The notes under the pieces were generated by a model, which was not told the DNA's origin, ran no database searches, and worked only from the letters and a program-made list of their open reading frames with translations. The position numbers and the translations under genes were made by a program. Source: Oceanibaculum pacificum (GTDB taxonomy: Bacteria; Pseudomonadota; Alphaproteobacteria; Oceanibaculales; Oceanibaculaceae). From it: 64,000 bases of DNA. Positions 7,312-15,269 of the stretch are shown here, piece after piece. Position 1 is the first letter of the stretch, and each line of letters begins with the position of its first letter. Where the stretch lies: assembly GCF_001618175.1 (NCBI RefSeq), contig NZ_LPXN01000138.1, positions 1 through 64,000 on the forward strand. The letters run 5' to 3'.

Positions 7312-10300
7312 ATGAGTGCCCCCACCATTACGGCTGGAAGCATCGCGATCTCCGGCGCCAGCGGCGCGGGCGGCGTGTTCAGGATCGGCGACACAGTCAC
7401 CGTCGAATGGAACGCGACCGCCGATGGCAATGCCGGCATCCAGTCCGTCACAATGGACTTCGGGCTATTCGGCGCTGATGAAACGGTGGAGGCGACCGAG
7501 ACGGGCGGCATCTGGACAGCCAGCTACACCATTCTCGAGGGAGCGATCGAGGATACTGACCTGGAGGTCGAGGTTGCGGCGGTCAATGCGGATGGCAGCA
7601 ATTCGTTGTACAGCGACGAAAATGCCGTGCTGGACAATCTACGGCCCGCCCTGGACCCGTCCGAATCATCGCCTGTCGCCGGCAACTTTGACATCGCGCT
7701 GGGCAGTGACATCACCTTGCGCTTCGACGAGGCGATCCAGCTCGGCACGGGCAATATCCTGCTGAAGGACGAAAACGGCACCACGGTCGAGAGCTTCGCC
7801 GTCGCCGGCCTGTCGGTCAGCAACGACACCGATATCGTGCTGAACCCGGCCGGCGACCTGTCGCGGCTGACGACCTATCATATCGAGATCGAGGCGGGCG
7901 CGGTGCTGGATGCCGCCGGCAACCCCATCGCGGCGTTAACCGGCGATGATGCCTATATCTTCACCACCATCGACAATACGCCCCTCGACAGCACGGGTGC
8001 GGGGTTCGACAGCAGGGACGGGAGGAATCTCAGCGGCCCCGCCACCGCCGGCAACGACACGATCCGCATCGCCGACAATGCCCATCTCGCCGGCTCGGTG
8101 ATCGATGGCGAGGGCGGGAGCGATACGCTGAGTTTCGTGCAAGGCGGGACGGCCGACCTGACAACCGCTGCCAGCGTCAGCGGCATATCCGTCATCCGCA
8201 TGCTGAACGCCGGTGGCTTGGCGCTCACCGTCTCGGCGGACAAGTGGCTGGACGTAGGCCGTATCGCCGGCGGCTCTGGCAGCGACGCGCTGATCCTGGC
8301 TGGTGCGGATGACAGCGATTTCGACCTCAGTGCGATGATCCTCATCGGCGTCGAGGCGCTCACCGTGGCCGCCGGCGGCGCCACGACCCTGACCATGGGC
8401 GAGGCACAGCTGTGTGGCTGCGATCTCACCACCCTCCAGGGCAATGGCGGCGATGTGCTGGCGACACCGGACACGCTGATCGACCTGTCGGAGATCGCGA
8501 TCAGCGGCTTTACGACACTGCGCATCACCAATGCCACGCTCGGCGTCTTCGCGCTCGACCAGGCGGATATCGACACGCTGAACGCGATTGAAGCGACCGA
8601 GGGTGACGCCGATATCGCCATTGTCAACGGCGAGGCCGGCTTCGACCTGTCTAAGGTTAGCCTGACCAACATAGACGCGGTGGAGAGCGTCGCCACGGCC
8701 GATTCACTCATCACCCTGGCAGAGGGGCAGCTTGCCGGACTGGCCGCCATCTACGGTTCACAGGACGTCGATACCACGCTGCGCGTTGCCGGTGATCTCG
8801 ACCTTACCGGCATCGAGCTGGACAGCATCGCTGCGGTTCAGACCACGGATGCCGAGGGTGGCACAATCACCCTGACCTGGGATCAGGTCGAGGCCGGTAT
8901 CGCCAGTATCGTCGGCGGCGCTGGAGAGGATACGCTGGTGCTGCGCGGCAGCGATGGCGATTCCTTCGATCTGACGACCCTTGCCTTCACCAGTTGGGAG
9001 CGGGTCGAAACCGATGTCGCCGGCGCGGTGACAGCCGGCTTCATGCACGATTCCTTCACCCTTGTCGGCGGCGGGTGTGCCGACCAGCTGACCGCCATCG
9101 GCAATGGCAACCGGATCGAGGGTGGGGCCGGCGCCGATACCATTGTCGCGCAAGGCGATAACAACACGCTGATCGGCGGCGCCGGCGACGACCAGATCCA
9201 GGCGGAGGGCGCCGGCAATCTGATCGAGGGCGGTGACGGCAACGACTATATTATCGGCGATTCCGGCAGCAACACATTGCGCGGCGATGCCGGTAACGAC
9301 ACGCTGGTCGCCGGGGTTGGTACGGTCACCATGACCGGCGGGGCCGGCAGTGACGAATTCCGGACCTATGACACCGATAATTTCGTCAACGGCACCATCA
9401 CCGATTTCGGCGTCGGCGACCGCATCGTCATCGAAGGCGCCGATTTATCGGAGTTGGACGGCCAGACTGCCAGTGGCAGTATTACGGTCGTGGATGGCGA
9501 GGGCGGGCTAGCACTGTCCGGCCTGTCCCCGGCGAGCGGCAGCTTCTCGGCCAGCTACGATGGCGACGAGACGACGATCATCCTTGTCGCGCCGCCTCCC
9601 GATCCCAGACCGCCCGCAACGCCCACGCTGCCGCCCATCGAGTCGCCCGATACGCCGCCCGTGGTCGGCCCTGACGGCAGCAGCCTCAATACCGAATCCG
9701 CCGTCACCGAAACCGCAGACGGCATCAATGTCCGCATCGACCAGACCCAAACCATGGCGGATGGTGCGAGCCTCACCACACAGATCGAGGCCACCGTCAG
9801 GGAACAGGCGCTGGAAGGCGGCACGATCCGCGAAACCGCAATCTCCACGGTGAACGCGCCGGGCCGCGCGCCGGTCACGCTGACGCGCGAGCGTACCAGC
9901 GTGACGGACACGCTGGACGAGACCACGACAAAGGTGACCATGACGGAGACGCTGACCGGCAGCGACGGCAGCAGCAGTTCGGCGACACTTACCCGCACCA
10001 CGCAGCAGACCGGCACCGGCACGACGATCAGAAGCGTTACCGAAACCTCCGACGGCATCCGCCTGATTGAGGAGGACAGCCCCGCCAGCGCCGGTTCCGG
10101 CACGGGCGAAGCCAGCCGGACGATACGCTGGGAGCCAGTCGGCGATCCCGCGACGCCGGGACAAACACTATCCGTCGATCTTATTCCCATCGAGAATGAT
10201 CTGCCCGACGTGCCGGGTGTGCTGAACCATGCCGCGTTGCAGGCGGATATTCCGACCGGGGTGACCATCCATTCCAATGGCCGAGACGAGCGCAGCAGCG

Positions 10301-11166
10301 GCAATGCCGCGCTGGAAGATATGCTGCGGCAGATCGAGGCGCGCAGCGACGGCCAGCCCGATGCCCGGCGGGACATGCTGCGCGACGGCGAAAGCTTCCT
10401 CGCCCTGATCAGTGAAGGCCCGACGCTCAGCGTTCGCACCATCACGCTGGAGGCGCCGGGCTGGGCCGGCGATCAGCCGCCTGCCATCACCATCCGTGGG
10501 GAAAGCGGCGGCTTCAATGCCAGCCGCCAGGAAGCCCTCGTGATCGATGCGACGCAGCTGCCGTCGGGCACGGTGCTGACGCTCGACAACATAGAATTCG
10601 CGACCGTCATCGGATCGGTCGCGATCATCGGCGGCGCGGGCGCTAATCACGTGACCGGTGACGGTGCGAACCAGCTGATCGTGCTGGGTCCGGGCGACGA
10701 CATCATCAATGGCGGCGGTGGGTTTGACCGGATCGGCTCCGGCGGCGGCAACGACACGCTGCAGGGCGGCATGCAGGGCGACACGGTTTCCGGCGGCGAC
10801 GGCAACGATGTGCTGCGCGGCGGAAAGGGCCATGATTCCATCGAAGGCGGGGCCGGTGACGATGTGCTCTACAGCGGGTTCGGCGAGGACACGCTGACCG
10901 GCGGCGAGGGGGCGGATGTGTTCGTGCTGCGCGGCTTCGACGCGGCTTTCGCAAATGCCGTACTGACGGCTACCGTTATCGATTTCGAGCAGGGCACGGA
11001 CCATCTTGCGGTGGAGAATGCGACGTTGGCAGAGCTGCAAGCAGCGATCACCAATCAGGCCGTGACCGGGGATGGCGTGGTGATCGAGGTGGCGGGGACG
11101 ACCCTCACCTTCCTCGGTATCAGCGTCCTCTCCGCTGCCGGCATTGACATGGCCTTCTACGCCTGA
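7312..11166 (+). CDS. Large multidomain RTX protein (1284 aa)
   Basis: GAGGA at 7300-7304 precedes the ATG. Residues 1-110 form an Ig-like unit. About 110-220 is a Big_5 (SbsA-type) Ig-like domain ending [10 protein letters not shown]. About 220-580 is a repetitive beta-rich region, and RTX-like repeats run to about 700. Then come a Pro-rich linker ([15 protein letters not shown]), a Thr/Ser-rich segment, a pre-RTX domain with [11 protein letters not shown] (residues 1083-1093) and the final RTX block with FVLRG tail. There is no signal peptide, which fits type I secretion. The last 230 or so residues are homologous to those of the serralysin-like protein at 25169-28342. It is probably an extracellular adhesin or matrix protein; no enzyme motif was seen. 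It converges on the AraC gene with a 10-base overlap. Confidence 0.85.
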
Positions 11167-12209
11167 AGGGACCGTATCCAGCACTCCCATTCCCTGTCAC
11201 CGAACAATCCGGTTTCGGGCTTATCCAAACCGCCGCCTGGAAGGTAGGCGCAGGCCCCGGCCTGACGCGCCTCCGATGGCGTGAAGCCATACCGTCGGCG
11301 AAAGGCACGGATGAAGGAGGATTCGCTGCTGAAACCCACCGATAGAGACACATCGATGATCTTGCGCTGCTGCTGGGTCGGGTCGGTCAGGATGGTCAGC
11401 GCATGCGCCAGCCGGCGGTCACGGATGTAGGCGGCAACGCCATTATAATGCTGGAACAGCTTGTACAGCCGGCTGCGCGATACCCCGAAGATTTCGGCGA
11501 CACTTTCGGGCGAGAGGGCGGAATCCTCGATATTCTCCTCGATATAGCGCTTGAGCATGGTGACGATAGCCATGCGGATCGCCTGCTCTCCGCTTTCATT
11601 CTCGTGCGGGTTGCCGTTCAGTGCGGCGGCCAGCAGGGCTATCGTGGGCGAAACGGCTAGCCCGCCCTGGTCAAGGGTCATATAAGGCGCTTGTTTCTGC
11701 AGCTCCAGCATATGGGTGCGCAGCAGACGCGTGAGCGGATTGTTCTCCCGGATGCATTGATAATGGCGATGGTCCGCATCCTTGATGTGCGGCGCCAGCA
11801 GGGAGCGCGGCACGAACAGGGCCAGCAGATCGAAATCATCGTTGGTGGTGTCCAGGGTCTGCGCATTGTCGAACACGCAGATGTCGCCTGCCTCTATGGC
11901 GACATCTCCCTGCGGCGTGCGCGCGTGGCAACGGCCGCGCATGAACAGCTGTATCATGTAATGGTCGATGCCATCGCGGTCGATGCGCATCCGGTCACGC
12001 TTGAAATGCTGCCGGCTGGCCCTGCACCTGATCTGCGACATGGCGCCGAACAGATAGCCGTCGGCCAGCGCATGAAAGCCACCCTCATCTCCGGGCGCGG
12101 TGAGATCGGCCTGATATATGACGGAGACACTATCGCGCCAGACCGGGAATTTATCTTCCCGCCCCAGCCGGTCGGTCGAGAAATAGGAATGCGGCAGCGC
12201 GTCTCCCAT
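11157..12209 (-). CDS. AraC-family transcriptional regulator
   Basis: A 350-residue regulator. The C-terminal 100 residues carry two AraC helix-turn-helix motifs: [19 protein letters not shown], and [20 protein letters not shown] followed by YGFTPSEAR. The N-terminal part resembles the AraC_binding_2 type ([17 protein letters not shown], an effector cupin-like fold). Two in-frame ATGs exist. The one at 12209 has GGGGAGAGG just upstream, whereas 12224 has none, so I use 12209. The gene lies between the large RTX gene and the subtilase, divergent from the latter, and may control secreted-protein genes. Confidence 0.88.
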
Positions 12210-12420
12210 CGACCCTCTCCCCATATCTGATTACGAATGTTCTAATTAATAAAAAGCCTCGCATATCGGTGTATTCGGTTCAACCCGCCCTCCCTTCCTC
12301 CGGGCGCTCCAAAACGAAATGGGCATCATTCTGGAACAGAATGTCAGGTGCGCCGCGCCGGTAGGGATAATTGTGAAAGCTGACCCATGCGAAGAACCGG
12401 AACACAGGATCGGATTTCCC

Positions 12421-13284
12421 ATGCTCCCGAACACACCCCCAAGTGACACATACTTTGCCTACCAGTGGCACCTGATCAATACGGGCCAGGGCGGCGCCAG
12501 GGCGGGGGTTGATCTCAATGTGTTGCCGGTCTGGCAGGCCTATACCGGCAAGGGCGTGAAGGTCGGCATCTACGATTCCGGCGTACAGATAAGCCACCCC
12601 GACCTGCTGGTGAACTTGGATCCGGCGCTACAGCCGACCACGGTTTCCGGGACGCATGATCCCGACCCGGTCGATGGGCGGTTCGTGACGAATGACGGGC
12701 ACGGCACCGCCGTTGCCGGGCTGATTCTTGCCGCGAATAACGGTTTCGGCGTGGTCGGCGTTGCCTATGATGCCACCTTCGGCGCGGTGAACCTGATCCT
12801 GTCCGATACCTATGAGTCGCAGAACGAGACGCTCGACATGATCGAGCTGCAGGCACTGCGTTACCAGATGGCCCGGTTCGATGTGATCAATCACAGCTAC
12901 GGGCCGAATGAGCCCTTCATTGCGAACTTCACCGAATATGAGAATTTCGCCGAACTGGCGGCCTTCGACCGGGCCAGCCTGATGGGCCGGAACGGGCTGG
13001 GCACCGTCCATGTCGTCGCCGGCGGCAATGAGCGCGACCAGGGCAATATGACGACCTACGGCGATCTCGGGAATCTGCGCTACACGATCAATGTCGCTGC
13101 GGGTTCTGCCGAGGGCGACATCATCTATTACAGCAATCCCGGCGCATCACTGGTCGCCACCGCGCCGGTGGACCGCAACCCGGACGATGACGGCTTCAAA
13201 TCGGTCACCACCGACCTGCTCGGCAGTCTCGGCTATTCCGGCAGTAATGCCGAAGAGATTACAAGCGACGCCTATTCCGACTAG
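12421..13284 (+). CDS. P-domain subtilase, N-terminal half (Asp and His)
   Basis: First half of an S8 serine protease, probably the kexin-like S8B type. It has the catalytic Asp (VGIYDSGVQISHPDL), the catalytic His (NDGHGTAVAGLIL) and the oxyanion-hole Asn (VAGGNERDQG). It ends at an in-frame TAG (13282-13284) right after DAYSD, where related enzymes continue into the GTSAAAP serine motif. I prefer ATG 12421 (MLPNTPPSDTYFAYQWHL, like family starts) with AGGA upstream; the frame is open to 12319. Without readthrough this product has no catalytic serine. See the next entry and the finding. Confidence 0.8.
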   Translation: MLPNTPPSDTYFAYQWHLINTGQGGARAGVDLNVLPVWQAYTGKGVKVGIYDSGVQISHPDLLVNLDPALQPTTVSGTHDPDPVDGRFVTNDGHGTAVAGLILAANNGFGVVGVAYDATFGAVNLILSDTYESQNETLDMIELQALRYQMARFDVINHSYGPNEPFIANFTEYENFAELAAFDRASLMGRNGLGTVHVVAGGNERDQGNMTTYGDLGNLRYTINVAAGSAEGDIIYYSNPGASLVATAPVDRNPDDDGFKSVTTDLLGSLGYSGSNAEEITSDAYSD

Positions 13285-14694
13285 ATGAACGGCACTTCGG
13301 CGGCGGCACCGATGGTCAGCGGCGTGGTCGCGCTGATGCTGGAGGCGAATCCGCTGCTGGGATACCGCGATGTGCAGGAAATCCTGGCGCTGACGGCGCG
13401 CGCCAACTGGCAGGAAGGCGAATATGAACTCTACGATTGGCAGACCAACGGCGCCGATTACTGGAATGGCGGCGGCCTGCAGTTCAGCCACGATTACGGC
13501 TTCGGCTTCGTCGATGGGCTGGCCGCCGTCCGGTTGGCCGAAAGCTGGACCGACCAGCGCACGCGCTACAACGAGCAGATGGAAGTTGTCGAGGCGCAGG
13601 ACATCGACACCACTATTCCCGATACCGGCGCTCCGCTCAGCTACAGTTTCGAGGTTGAGGCCGATTTCACCATCGAATGGGTCGAGCTTGCCGCGGGGCT
13701 GGATCACAGCTGGTGGGGCGATCTCACGATTACCCTGCTGTCGCCGGACGGTACAGAAAGCGTTCTGATGAACCGGCCCGGCGTGACGCCGGATACCAAT
13801 GCCGGGCTCGATCTTCCGGTCAATATCTCCGGTTTCGAAGGCGATGACGGATTGCAGTTCATCTTTGCCAGCAACGCCTCGCGCGGGGAAATGGCGGCAG
13901 GCACCTGGACGGTGAATGTCGCCGATGTTGGCGCGGCTGGTTTCGGTGTCCTCGAGGATCTGACCCTGCTGCTCTATGGCCGCCCGGAAGAGACGGGGCC
14001 GAAGACCTATTTCTACACTGACCGCTATGCCGATCTTGTGGCCGCCGCCCCCGACCGTGGGATGCTGTCCCTAGAGGAAGATGGACAGATCAACGCAGTT
14101 GCCGTCAGTGGCGATGTGACGATCGACCTCACCCCGGGGATGCTCGGCAGCATTGCCGGTGCCGACTTCGCAATTGCCGACGGTTCGCTGGTTACCGCCA
14201 TCCTGGCGGGCGATGGCGGCGATCGGTTGACCGCGAACGACCTCGGCAATTTGCTGTCCGGGGGGCGGGGTCACGATGTTCTCATCGGGGGAGACGGCGC
14301 TGATCTCCTGGAAGGCAACAAGAACGCCGACACGCTGGTGGGCGGGCTTGGCGATGATACGCTGCGCGGTGGCAAGGGCCACGACCGGCTGGAAGGCGGC
14401 GGTGGCAACGATGTGATGTATGGTGGCCTGGGTGACGATGTGTTCGTGTTCGCCGACAACAGCGGTGCCGATACGATCATGGATTTCTGGCGTGGCGGAA
14501 ACCGCATCGAAGTCAGCCAGGGCATCAATGGCACGGCCATTTCCAGCGAAGCGGACCTTTTGGCGCTTCTGTCTTCGGATGCCAACGGCAGTGCTGTGCT
14601 TGACTTGGGAGCCGACAGCAATGTCACTCTGCTTGGGGTTGCAGCAGCCTCCCTGACCGAGGCTCATTTCATAATTTCCGCACCCATAGCGTAA
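13285..14694 (+). CDS. P-domain subtilase, C-terminal half (Ser, P domain, RTX)
   Basis: It starts with ATG immediately after the TAG (TAGATG) and opens with MNGTSAAAPMVSGVVALMLE, the catalytic serine motif. After the end of the peptidase domain (to about residue 100) comes a proprotein-convertase P domain (SYSFEVEADFTIEWVELAAG to LLLYG, about 115-240). RTX repeats follow ([35 protein letters not shown]) and then a tail unlike the FVLRG tail of the other RTX proteins. The reading frame is otherwise intact and codon-biased, so the TAG is recent or is read through. Translation could restart at the adjoining ATG. Confidence 0.8.
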   Translation: MNGTSAAAPMVSGVVALMLEANPLLGYRDVQEILALTARANWQEGEYELYDWQTNGADYWNGGGLQFSHDYGFGFVDGLAAVRLAESWTDQRTRYNEQMEVVEAQDIDTTIPDTGAPLSYSFEVEADFTIEWVELAAGLDHSWWGDLTITLLSPDGTESVLMNRPGVTPDTNAGLDLPVNISGFEGDDGLQFIFASNASRGEMAAGTWTVNVADVGAAGFGVLEDLTLLLYGRPEETGPKTYFYTDRYADLVAAAPDRGMLSLEEDGQINAVAVSGDVTIDLTPGMLGSIAGADFAIADGSLVTAILAGDGGDRLTANDLGNLLSGGRGHDVLIGGDGADLLEGNKNADTLVGGLGDDTLRGGKGHDRLEGGGGNDVMYGGLGDDVFVFADNSGADTIMDFWRGGNRIEVSQGINGTAISSEADLLALLSSDANGSAVLDLGADSNVTLLGVAAASLTEAHFIISAPIA

Positions 14695-14712: not shown

Positions 14713-14853
14713 ATGGCTAAGCTTTCGGCACAAAGATTGACGGTCTTGCACGAAAGCGTAGCCGATACGCTGTCCGTGTTTCTGCAGGATAGTGCCGCCA
14801 ACCTGCCCGGCCTGGCGGCTGCGAATTCCTGCTCTATGAACAATGCGACCTGA
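14713..14853 (+). CDS. Small ORF (46 aa) coupled to the RiPP precursor
   Basis: AAGGGGGG lies shortly before ATG 14713. The product begins MAKLSAQRLTVLHESVADTL and ends at TGA 14851-14853, which overlaps the next ATG as TGATG. I do not recognise it. In the next gene's frame, the DNA just before that ATG also reads like protein (EFLLYEQCDLMWKDS), so the two may be one older ORF broken by a frameshift near 14820. The helical pattern loosely recalls the end of a TolC-type protein, but this is not firm. Confidence 0.45.
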   Translation: MAKLSAQRLTVLHESVADTLSVFLQDSAANLPGLAAANSCSMNNAT

Positions 14854-15269
14854 TGTGGAAGGATTCCTCCCGTGACGCCACGCCGCGACAGGCCACCATG
14901 TCTCCTGCCGAACGGCTGAAGGACACGGTCTGGCAGCAGATAGTCAGTCTGGCCAATACTGACGGGCATTTCCGCCGCCGCCTGCAAGCCGAACCGTTTG
15001 CCCTGTTGCAGTCGGTCGGCATATCAGTGCCGCCGGATATCCGATTTGTCTGTGTAGAGACAGGACTGCCCGGGGTGGCGGAGGTGCTGGGGCGCTCTGC
15101 CGGTTTGACGGTCTATGTACCTGTCGTCATTGCAAATGCTGATGACGAGTTGGACGACGAGTCTCTGGACGCGGTGGTCGGCGGCGCGGGGCAACAGATG
15201 GCAATGCCAATGCCCGCCAATTTCGTCGGCATGATCTCCTTCGCCGATGGCGGCAGCGGCGGCTTTTAG
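14853..15269 (+). CDS. NHLP-type RiPP precursor peptide
   Basis: A 138-residue protein with the layout of nitrile-hydratase-like leader peptides. The leader has SLANTDGHFRRRLQAEPFAL, LLQSVGISVP and a VYVPVVIANADDELDDESLD segment ending in the double-glycine site VVGG (residues 108-111). The core left after GG is 27 residues, starting AGQQMAMPMP and ending ADGGSGGF. It is rich in Met, Gly and Ala, with no Cys or Thr and two Ser, so lanthionine chemistry is unlikely. NHLP peptides are normally modified, then cut after GG and exported by a peptidase-containing ABC transporter; neither partner is in view. Start codons are ATG 14853 (coupled TGATG) or ATG 14898 (MSPAERLKD), which would give a more typical leader length. 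Confidence 0.72.
   Translation: MWKDSSRDATPRQATMSPAERLKDTVWQQIVSLANTDGHFRRRLQAEPFALLQSVGISVPPDIRFVCVETGLPGVAEVLGRSAGLTVYVPVVIANADDELDDESLDAVVGGAGQQMAMPMPANFVGMISFADGGSGGF

Follow-up and report, generated by a model that had tools for sequence, protein, structure and literature searches.

In 2010 Haft, Basu and Mitchell (PMC2887384) described NHLP leaders, their double-glycine (GG) cleavage site and an exporter made up of three genes; the cores in their account abound in heterocyclizable residues. A C39 protease able to cleave NHLP leaders recognises the residues V-4, L-7 and L-12 before the GG (PMC6363468); the LXXXXL motif and its role are also documented in PMC10858898, and the motif is used by modifying enzymes too. 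Genome-mining rules take an NHLP leader as the sign of a heavily modified peptide and seek its maturase next door. We describe here an NHLP-leader precursor gene of Oceanibaculum pacificum, located in a window of 64,000 nucleotides (contig C138 of G000, a 3.89-Mb draft genome that is 91.8% complete), and compare it across four genomes of the genus: G000 and the congeners G001, G002 and G003. The gene (14853, or 14898, to 15269) encodes a double-glycine NHLP peptide that is probably exported in trans, carries an unmodified core and acts extracellularly.

Systems of this kind are known. The NHLP/TIGR03794/03796/03797 systems (PMC2887384) share with this one an NHase-alpha-like leader, an acidic LxxxxL-xx-V-x-GG region, the exporter triad in the genome and several precursors with different cores. 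Unlike them, the precursor has a core without Cys and with few Ser or Thr, scores below the curated cut-off, and lies at a locus without a TOMM or LanM gene and unlinked to the exporter. The variation thus lies in a conserved core free of Cys, a locus that has no maturase and a scattered arrangement; the parts are those of the known export route (PMC2887384) with the exporter merely unlinked, and the original prediction of an undescribed system is not borne out. The proteusins MprE7/SrpE (PDB 8TB1, PMC10858898) resemble the precursor in sequence (E=4e-12), in the order of secondary-structure elements in its model and in an LXXXXL at -12 to -7, but they are defined by modified cores, whereas no modifying enzyme was found at the locus of the precursor, whose core has no Trp. 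Like the window's genome, Azospirillum sp. B510 (PMC2887384; LahT150 cleavage, PMC6363468) is an alphaproteobacterium with several NHLP precursors and a C39-readable leader; unlike the precursor described here, its precursors are accompanied locally by a LanM and a docking protein. The logic proposed here, with a GG leader removed on export and an unmodified core, is that of class II microcins and other C39-ABC double-glycine peptides, but their leaders are short, whereas the precursor's leader is a folded NHLP domain of ~96 residues. One group of double-glycine clusters in cyanobacteria is also marked by S8-peptidase proteins (PMC3140520); the subtilase beside the precursor in G003 is a parallel, and it is interrupted in the window. 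A literature search for maturase-less NHLP precursors in Alphaproteobacteria found no paper treating such a case.

Precursor, leader and core

The precursor gene (14853..15269, + strand) encodes 138 aa, and its ATG shares bases with the stop codon of the small ORF before it (TGATG). An equally good start, ATG 14898, yields 123 aa. Conservation with G003 begins at this second ATG, and nothing in G003 corresponds to the 15 residues that the 138-aa version has in addition. The leader and core analysis is the same with either start. A Pfam search of the ORF gave no match. The NCBIfam model TIGR03793 (leader_NHLP) matched residues 26-111 at profile positions 5-77 of 77 (E=2.3e-9), which agrees with the NHLP-type leader, and with the span of 25-111, in the original prediction; the match ends on the GG, and its score of 37 bits is under the curated cut-off of 50.9, as is the 41.5 bits of the G003 orthologue. 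A 7-sequence profile of the precursor family retrieved 8tb1, a solved proteusin precursor, at E=4e-12, followed by NHase alpha chains. The ORF has a single Cys and no CxxCxC-type motif, so the homology to NHase alpha comes without its metal-binding motif. Searches with the precursor found no relative in viral contigs, and in genome contigs the sole match was the G002 record (a marine MAG).

The leader through the double glycine spans 14898..15185 (+) and terminates in ELDDESLDAVVGG. As read from the sequence, the C39 recognition stretch LDDESLDAVVGG (15150..15185, +) supplies L-12, L-7, V-4, G-2 and G-1. The core AGQQMAMPMPANFVGMISFADGGSGGF (15186..15266, +) is 27 aa long and has 2 Ser and 4 Met but no Cys and no Thr; both the GG boundary and a 27-residue core free of Cys and Thr had been anticipated. 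Summed by hand, the average mass of the unmodified core would be about 2.7 kDa. Cys, needed for lanthipeptide thioether rings, was looked for in this and the orthologous cores, and 0 were found. An AlphaFold model of the precursor (pLDDT 74) contains helices at 3-21, 23-31 and 33-38, a strand at 49-55, a helix at 57-64 and a strand at 71-77, followed by a disordered segment and, directly in front of the GG, a short helix at 87-94. This is close to the order published for 8TB1, alpha1-3/beta1/beta2/alpha4 (PMC10858898). In a Foldseek search with the model, the top 28 places were all NHase alpha or 8tb1, none of them significant (best E 0.73), and the outcome was used only as consistent with the sequence result.

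Conservation and exporter

Orthologues of the precursor are present in G002 (91% identity) and G003 (69%), both with the GG, which is invariant across all orthologues and paralogues. Amino acid identity to G003 is 75% in the leader and 48% in the core; a variable GG and a C-terminus as conserved as the leader had been named beforehand as the contrary pattern. The core retains PMPxNFxxMISFxDG between the precursor and G003, including the Ser of MISF, and taken alone is constrained relative to G003 (p=0.0009, with synonymous sites there near saturation). Between G000 and G002 the precursor differs by 14 synonymous changes over 94 sites and 9 nonsynonymous changes over 275 sites, a dN/dS of 0.20 (Fisher p=0.0002) that indicates purifying selection. 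The two congener orthologues with GG, a second precursor in the genome and this selection indicate that the precursor is more than a product of chance.

The second NHLP precursor, also Cys-free, lies on contig C140 and has the core TALAGFTVQDYAAFFADSLNARGGGVT; between G000 and G002 its leader is 54% and its core 11% identical, the tail varying freely. It is convergent with an MsrP-type molybdoenzyme-like gene, judged by eye (L020:7297-8277 and 8270-8644), and the layout is the same in G002 (L038). A functional link between a Met-rich core and this MsrP-like gene was considered and rejected, as the second core has no Met.

Contig C99 carries, in one row, HlyD (TIGR03794, 335 bits against a cut-off of 156), a C39-peptidase ABC protein (TIGR03796, 1074 against 853), a second ABC protein (TIGR03797, 898 against 709) and a TolC-type outer membrane protein. 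The Gln-x5-Cys, His and Asp residues are visible in the C39 domain. The genome scan for NHLP peptidase-ABC transporters proposed with the original prediction thus returned a full exporter set, with all three profiles above cut-off.

G002 contains the orthologue and two more NHLP precursors, and G003 contains one orthologue. The gene order in G003 is subtilase, a 377-aa helical gene, precursor, regulatory genes and then HlyD-ABC1-ABC2-TolC, the exporter beginning ~4.6 kb downstream of the precursor. The matching neighbourhood of G001 holds the helical gene, the regulatory genes, a subtilase scrap and an internally deleted precursor remnant. The 16 kb read there contain neither an exporter nor an AraC gene; across the whole of G001, the best ABC2 score is below cut-off (315 bits), and a LANC domain and an intact precursor are both absent. 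Precursor and exporter are accordingly both present in G000, G002 and G003 and both missing in G001, an association in 4/4 genomes: the one genome lacking the exporter has lost the peptide. With four genomes only, and LanM showing the same pattern, the co-occurrence may represent one evolutionary event.

In the proposed route, the folded NHLP leader would bring the precursor to the genome's NHLP exporter on contig C99. In its NHLM ABC1 subunit, the C39 peptidase would bind L-12/L-7/V-4 and cut after the GG, and the 27-residue core would exit via ABC1/ABC2-HlyD-TolC. The core, most likely not cross-linked, would then be a small secreted peptide with an extracellular role, either microcin-like or as a signal. 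We infer the export, the absence of modification and the activity of the core. Counting against the model are the TIGR03793 score (37 against 50.9), the two Ser that a LanM could dehydrate and the decay of the neighbouring genes.

Neighbouring genes

A gene for a subtilase with a P-domain and RTX repeats (12319..14694, +; Peptidase_S8, P_proprotein, HemolysinCabind) precedes the precursor. The original prediction had a secreted RTX protease at this position; the gene is in fact split by an in-frame TAG (13282-13284) just 5' of the catalytic GTSAAAP motif. In G003, where the gene is intact, the codon is CAG (Gln). The TAG is either a genuine nonsense mutation or a draft-assembly error.

The small ORF (14713..14853, +; 46 aa) does overlap the precursor as predicted, by TGA/ATG at 14853, but it is what truncation has left of the start of the 377-aa helical gene, whose intact homologue is in G003 (L037:6313-7446, family P0001), as determined by a junction alignment. 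The ~80 bp at 14815-14895, common to G002 and absent from G003, stand in place of ~1,040 bp of the helical gene. This lesion is common to G000 and G002, and G002 is also without most of the subtilase. The right-hand end of that larger, separate deletion nearly coincides with the end of the ~80-bp replacement. The common ancestor of G000 and G002 already had the helical-gene truncation, yet the precursor is under selection, so the peptide is independent of the subtilase and the helical gene. The subtilase was rejected as an obligatory partner: the precursor is conserved although G000 has an interrupted copy and G002 has lost most of the gene. The 377-aa protein was likewise rejected as an obligatory maturase: its gene is truncated at the locus in G000, gone in G002, and intact in G001 without the precursor.

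The 377-aa protein has no match in Pfam or the PDB, and its predicted model is all-helical. Its gene adjoins STAS and SpoIIE-like genes in G001 and G003, and paralogues (L051:10071-11195 and L052:8174-9301) lie in G000 and G002 close to regulatory genes of this kind and to one that is RsbW-like.

A divergent AraC-type regulator gene (11157..12224, -; HTH_18 and AraC_binding_2 in the G002 orthologue) is kept with the precursor in three genomes. It is 91% identical in G002 and 81% in G003, with no match in the G001 region. Beyond it, at 7312-11166 of the window, is a gene for a 1284-aa protein with RTX-like repeats, a relative of which occupies the same place in G002 (L036:8707-10926).

Modification and alternative readings

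No maturase was found at the precursor locus, as the original prediction had noted. YcaO was rejected as a trans maturase, being absent from G000 and G003, and SPASM radical SAM as a shared one, being absent from G003; LanM is the sole tested maturase class common to all three precursor-bearing genomes. In G000 the LanM gene (458 bits, cut-off 304) is on the 5.6-kb contig C87, directly after two Nif11-leader precursors (L098:1026-4383) with the Cys-rich cores GSPYCMFTKGCYCFFTK and GSPYCMGTNGCYCMCTGKFTDNWF. Because there is no exporter on C87, the C99 exporter probably serves these Nif11 lanthipeptides too. LanM and the two Nif11 precursors are conserved in G002 and G003, without an exporter in the stretches read.

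An unmodified core would be the simplest reading of the sequences. Modification in trans before export, an idea already raised in the original prediction, was weighed against it: LanM would dehydrate Ser to dehydroalanine without forming lanthionines, because the core has no Cys, or another enzyme class would act. In its favour, LanM is present in all three precursor-bearing genomes with its domain absent from G001, the LXXXXL motif also serves modifying enzymes (PMC10858898) and the Ser of MISF is conserved. The LanM gene, however, sits with its own Nif11-leader, Cys-rich precursors; NHLP cores have 0 Cys in 639 residues (n=27, drawn from this genus plus two more genera of Alphaproteobacteria, G036/G261 and G262), against 17 in 99 for the LanM-linked Nif11 cores; and G262, with >10 Cys-free NHLP precursors, has no LANC domain. 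With a Cys-free core and a LanM that has precursors of its own, we consider modification in trans unlikely. Halogenases are known for SrpE-type proteusins, and modification of the core by another enzyme class such as these is possible.

The interrupted subtilase and truncated helical gene could also mark a dying relic, its precursor open but out of use in this strain, with the G001 remnant as the end state. Such a fate appears quite improbable: the exporter is intact, and purifying selection has acted between G000 and G002 even though the helical-gene truncation was already present in their common ancestor. A non-exported, NHase-alpha-like small protein with a functional C-terminal tail inside the cell would account for the leader's homology to NHase alpha and for the partial conservation of the tail. 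It would not account for a GG invariant in orthologues and paralogues, for the free variation of the second precursor's tail or for intact precursors that track the exporter, and we give it very little weight. Export of an unmodified core through the C99 exporter remains the preferred reading.

Taken with its paralogues and with the NHLP cores, likewise Cys-free, of the two other genera, the precursor suggests a branch whose leaders may be used for export alone, with the exporter elsewhere. We suggest tentatively that in several alphaproteobacteria the NHLP leader is a pure export tag and that scattered, Cys-free, unmodified cores share an exporter hub with Nif11 lanthipeptides, so that an NHLP precursor need not denote a RiPP. 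If this is true, many such peptides go unnoticed or are filed wrongly, and synthesising and testing them would be simple.

The other genera differ in layout. G262 has its tandem NHLP precursors (L105:13280 to L106:3889) beside an NHLP exporter, with short cores all ending in Trp, and among them lies a 372-aa gene without a Pfam match (L106:1011-2129). In G036 and G261 a Cys-free precursor adjoins the exporter, and these genomes contain arrays of NHLP precursors (L040, L041, L107, L110) with Cys-free cores, some of them amphipathic-looking, such as GWFNDLISAIGPIAGSAIGKLMNGR.
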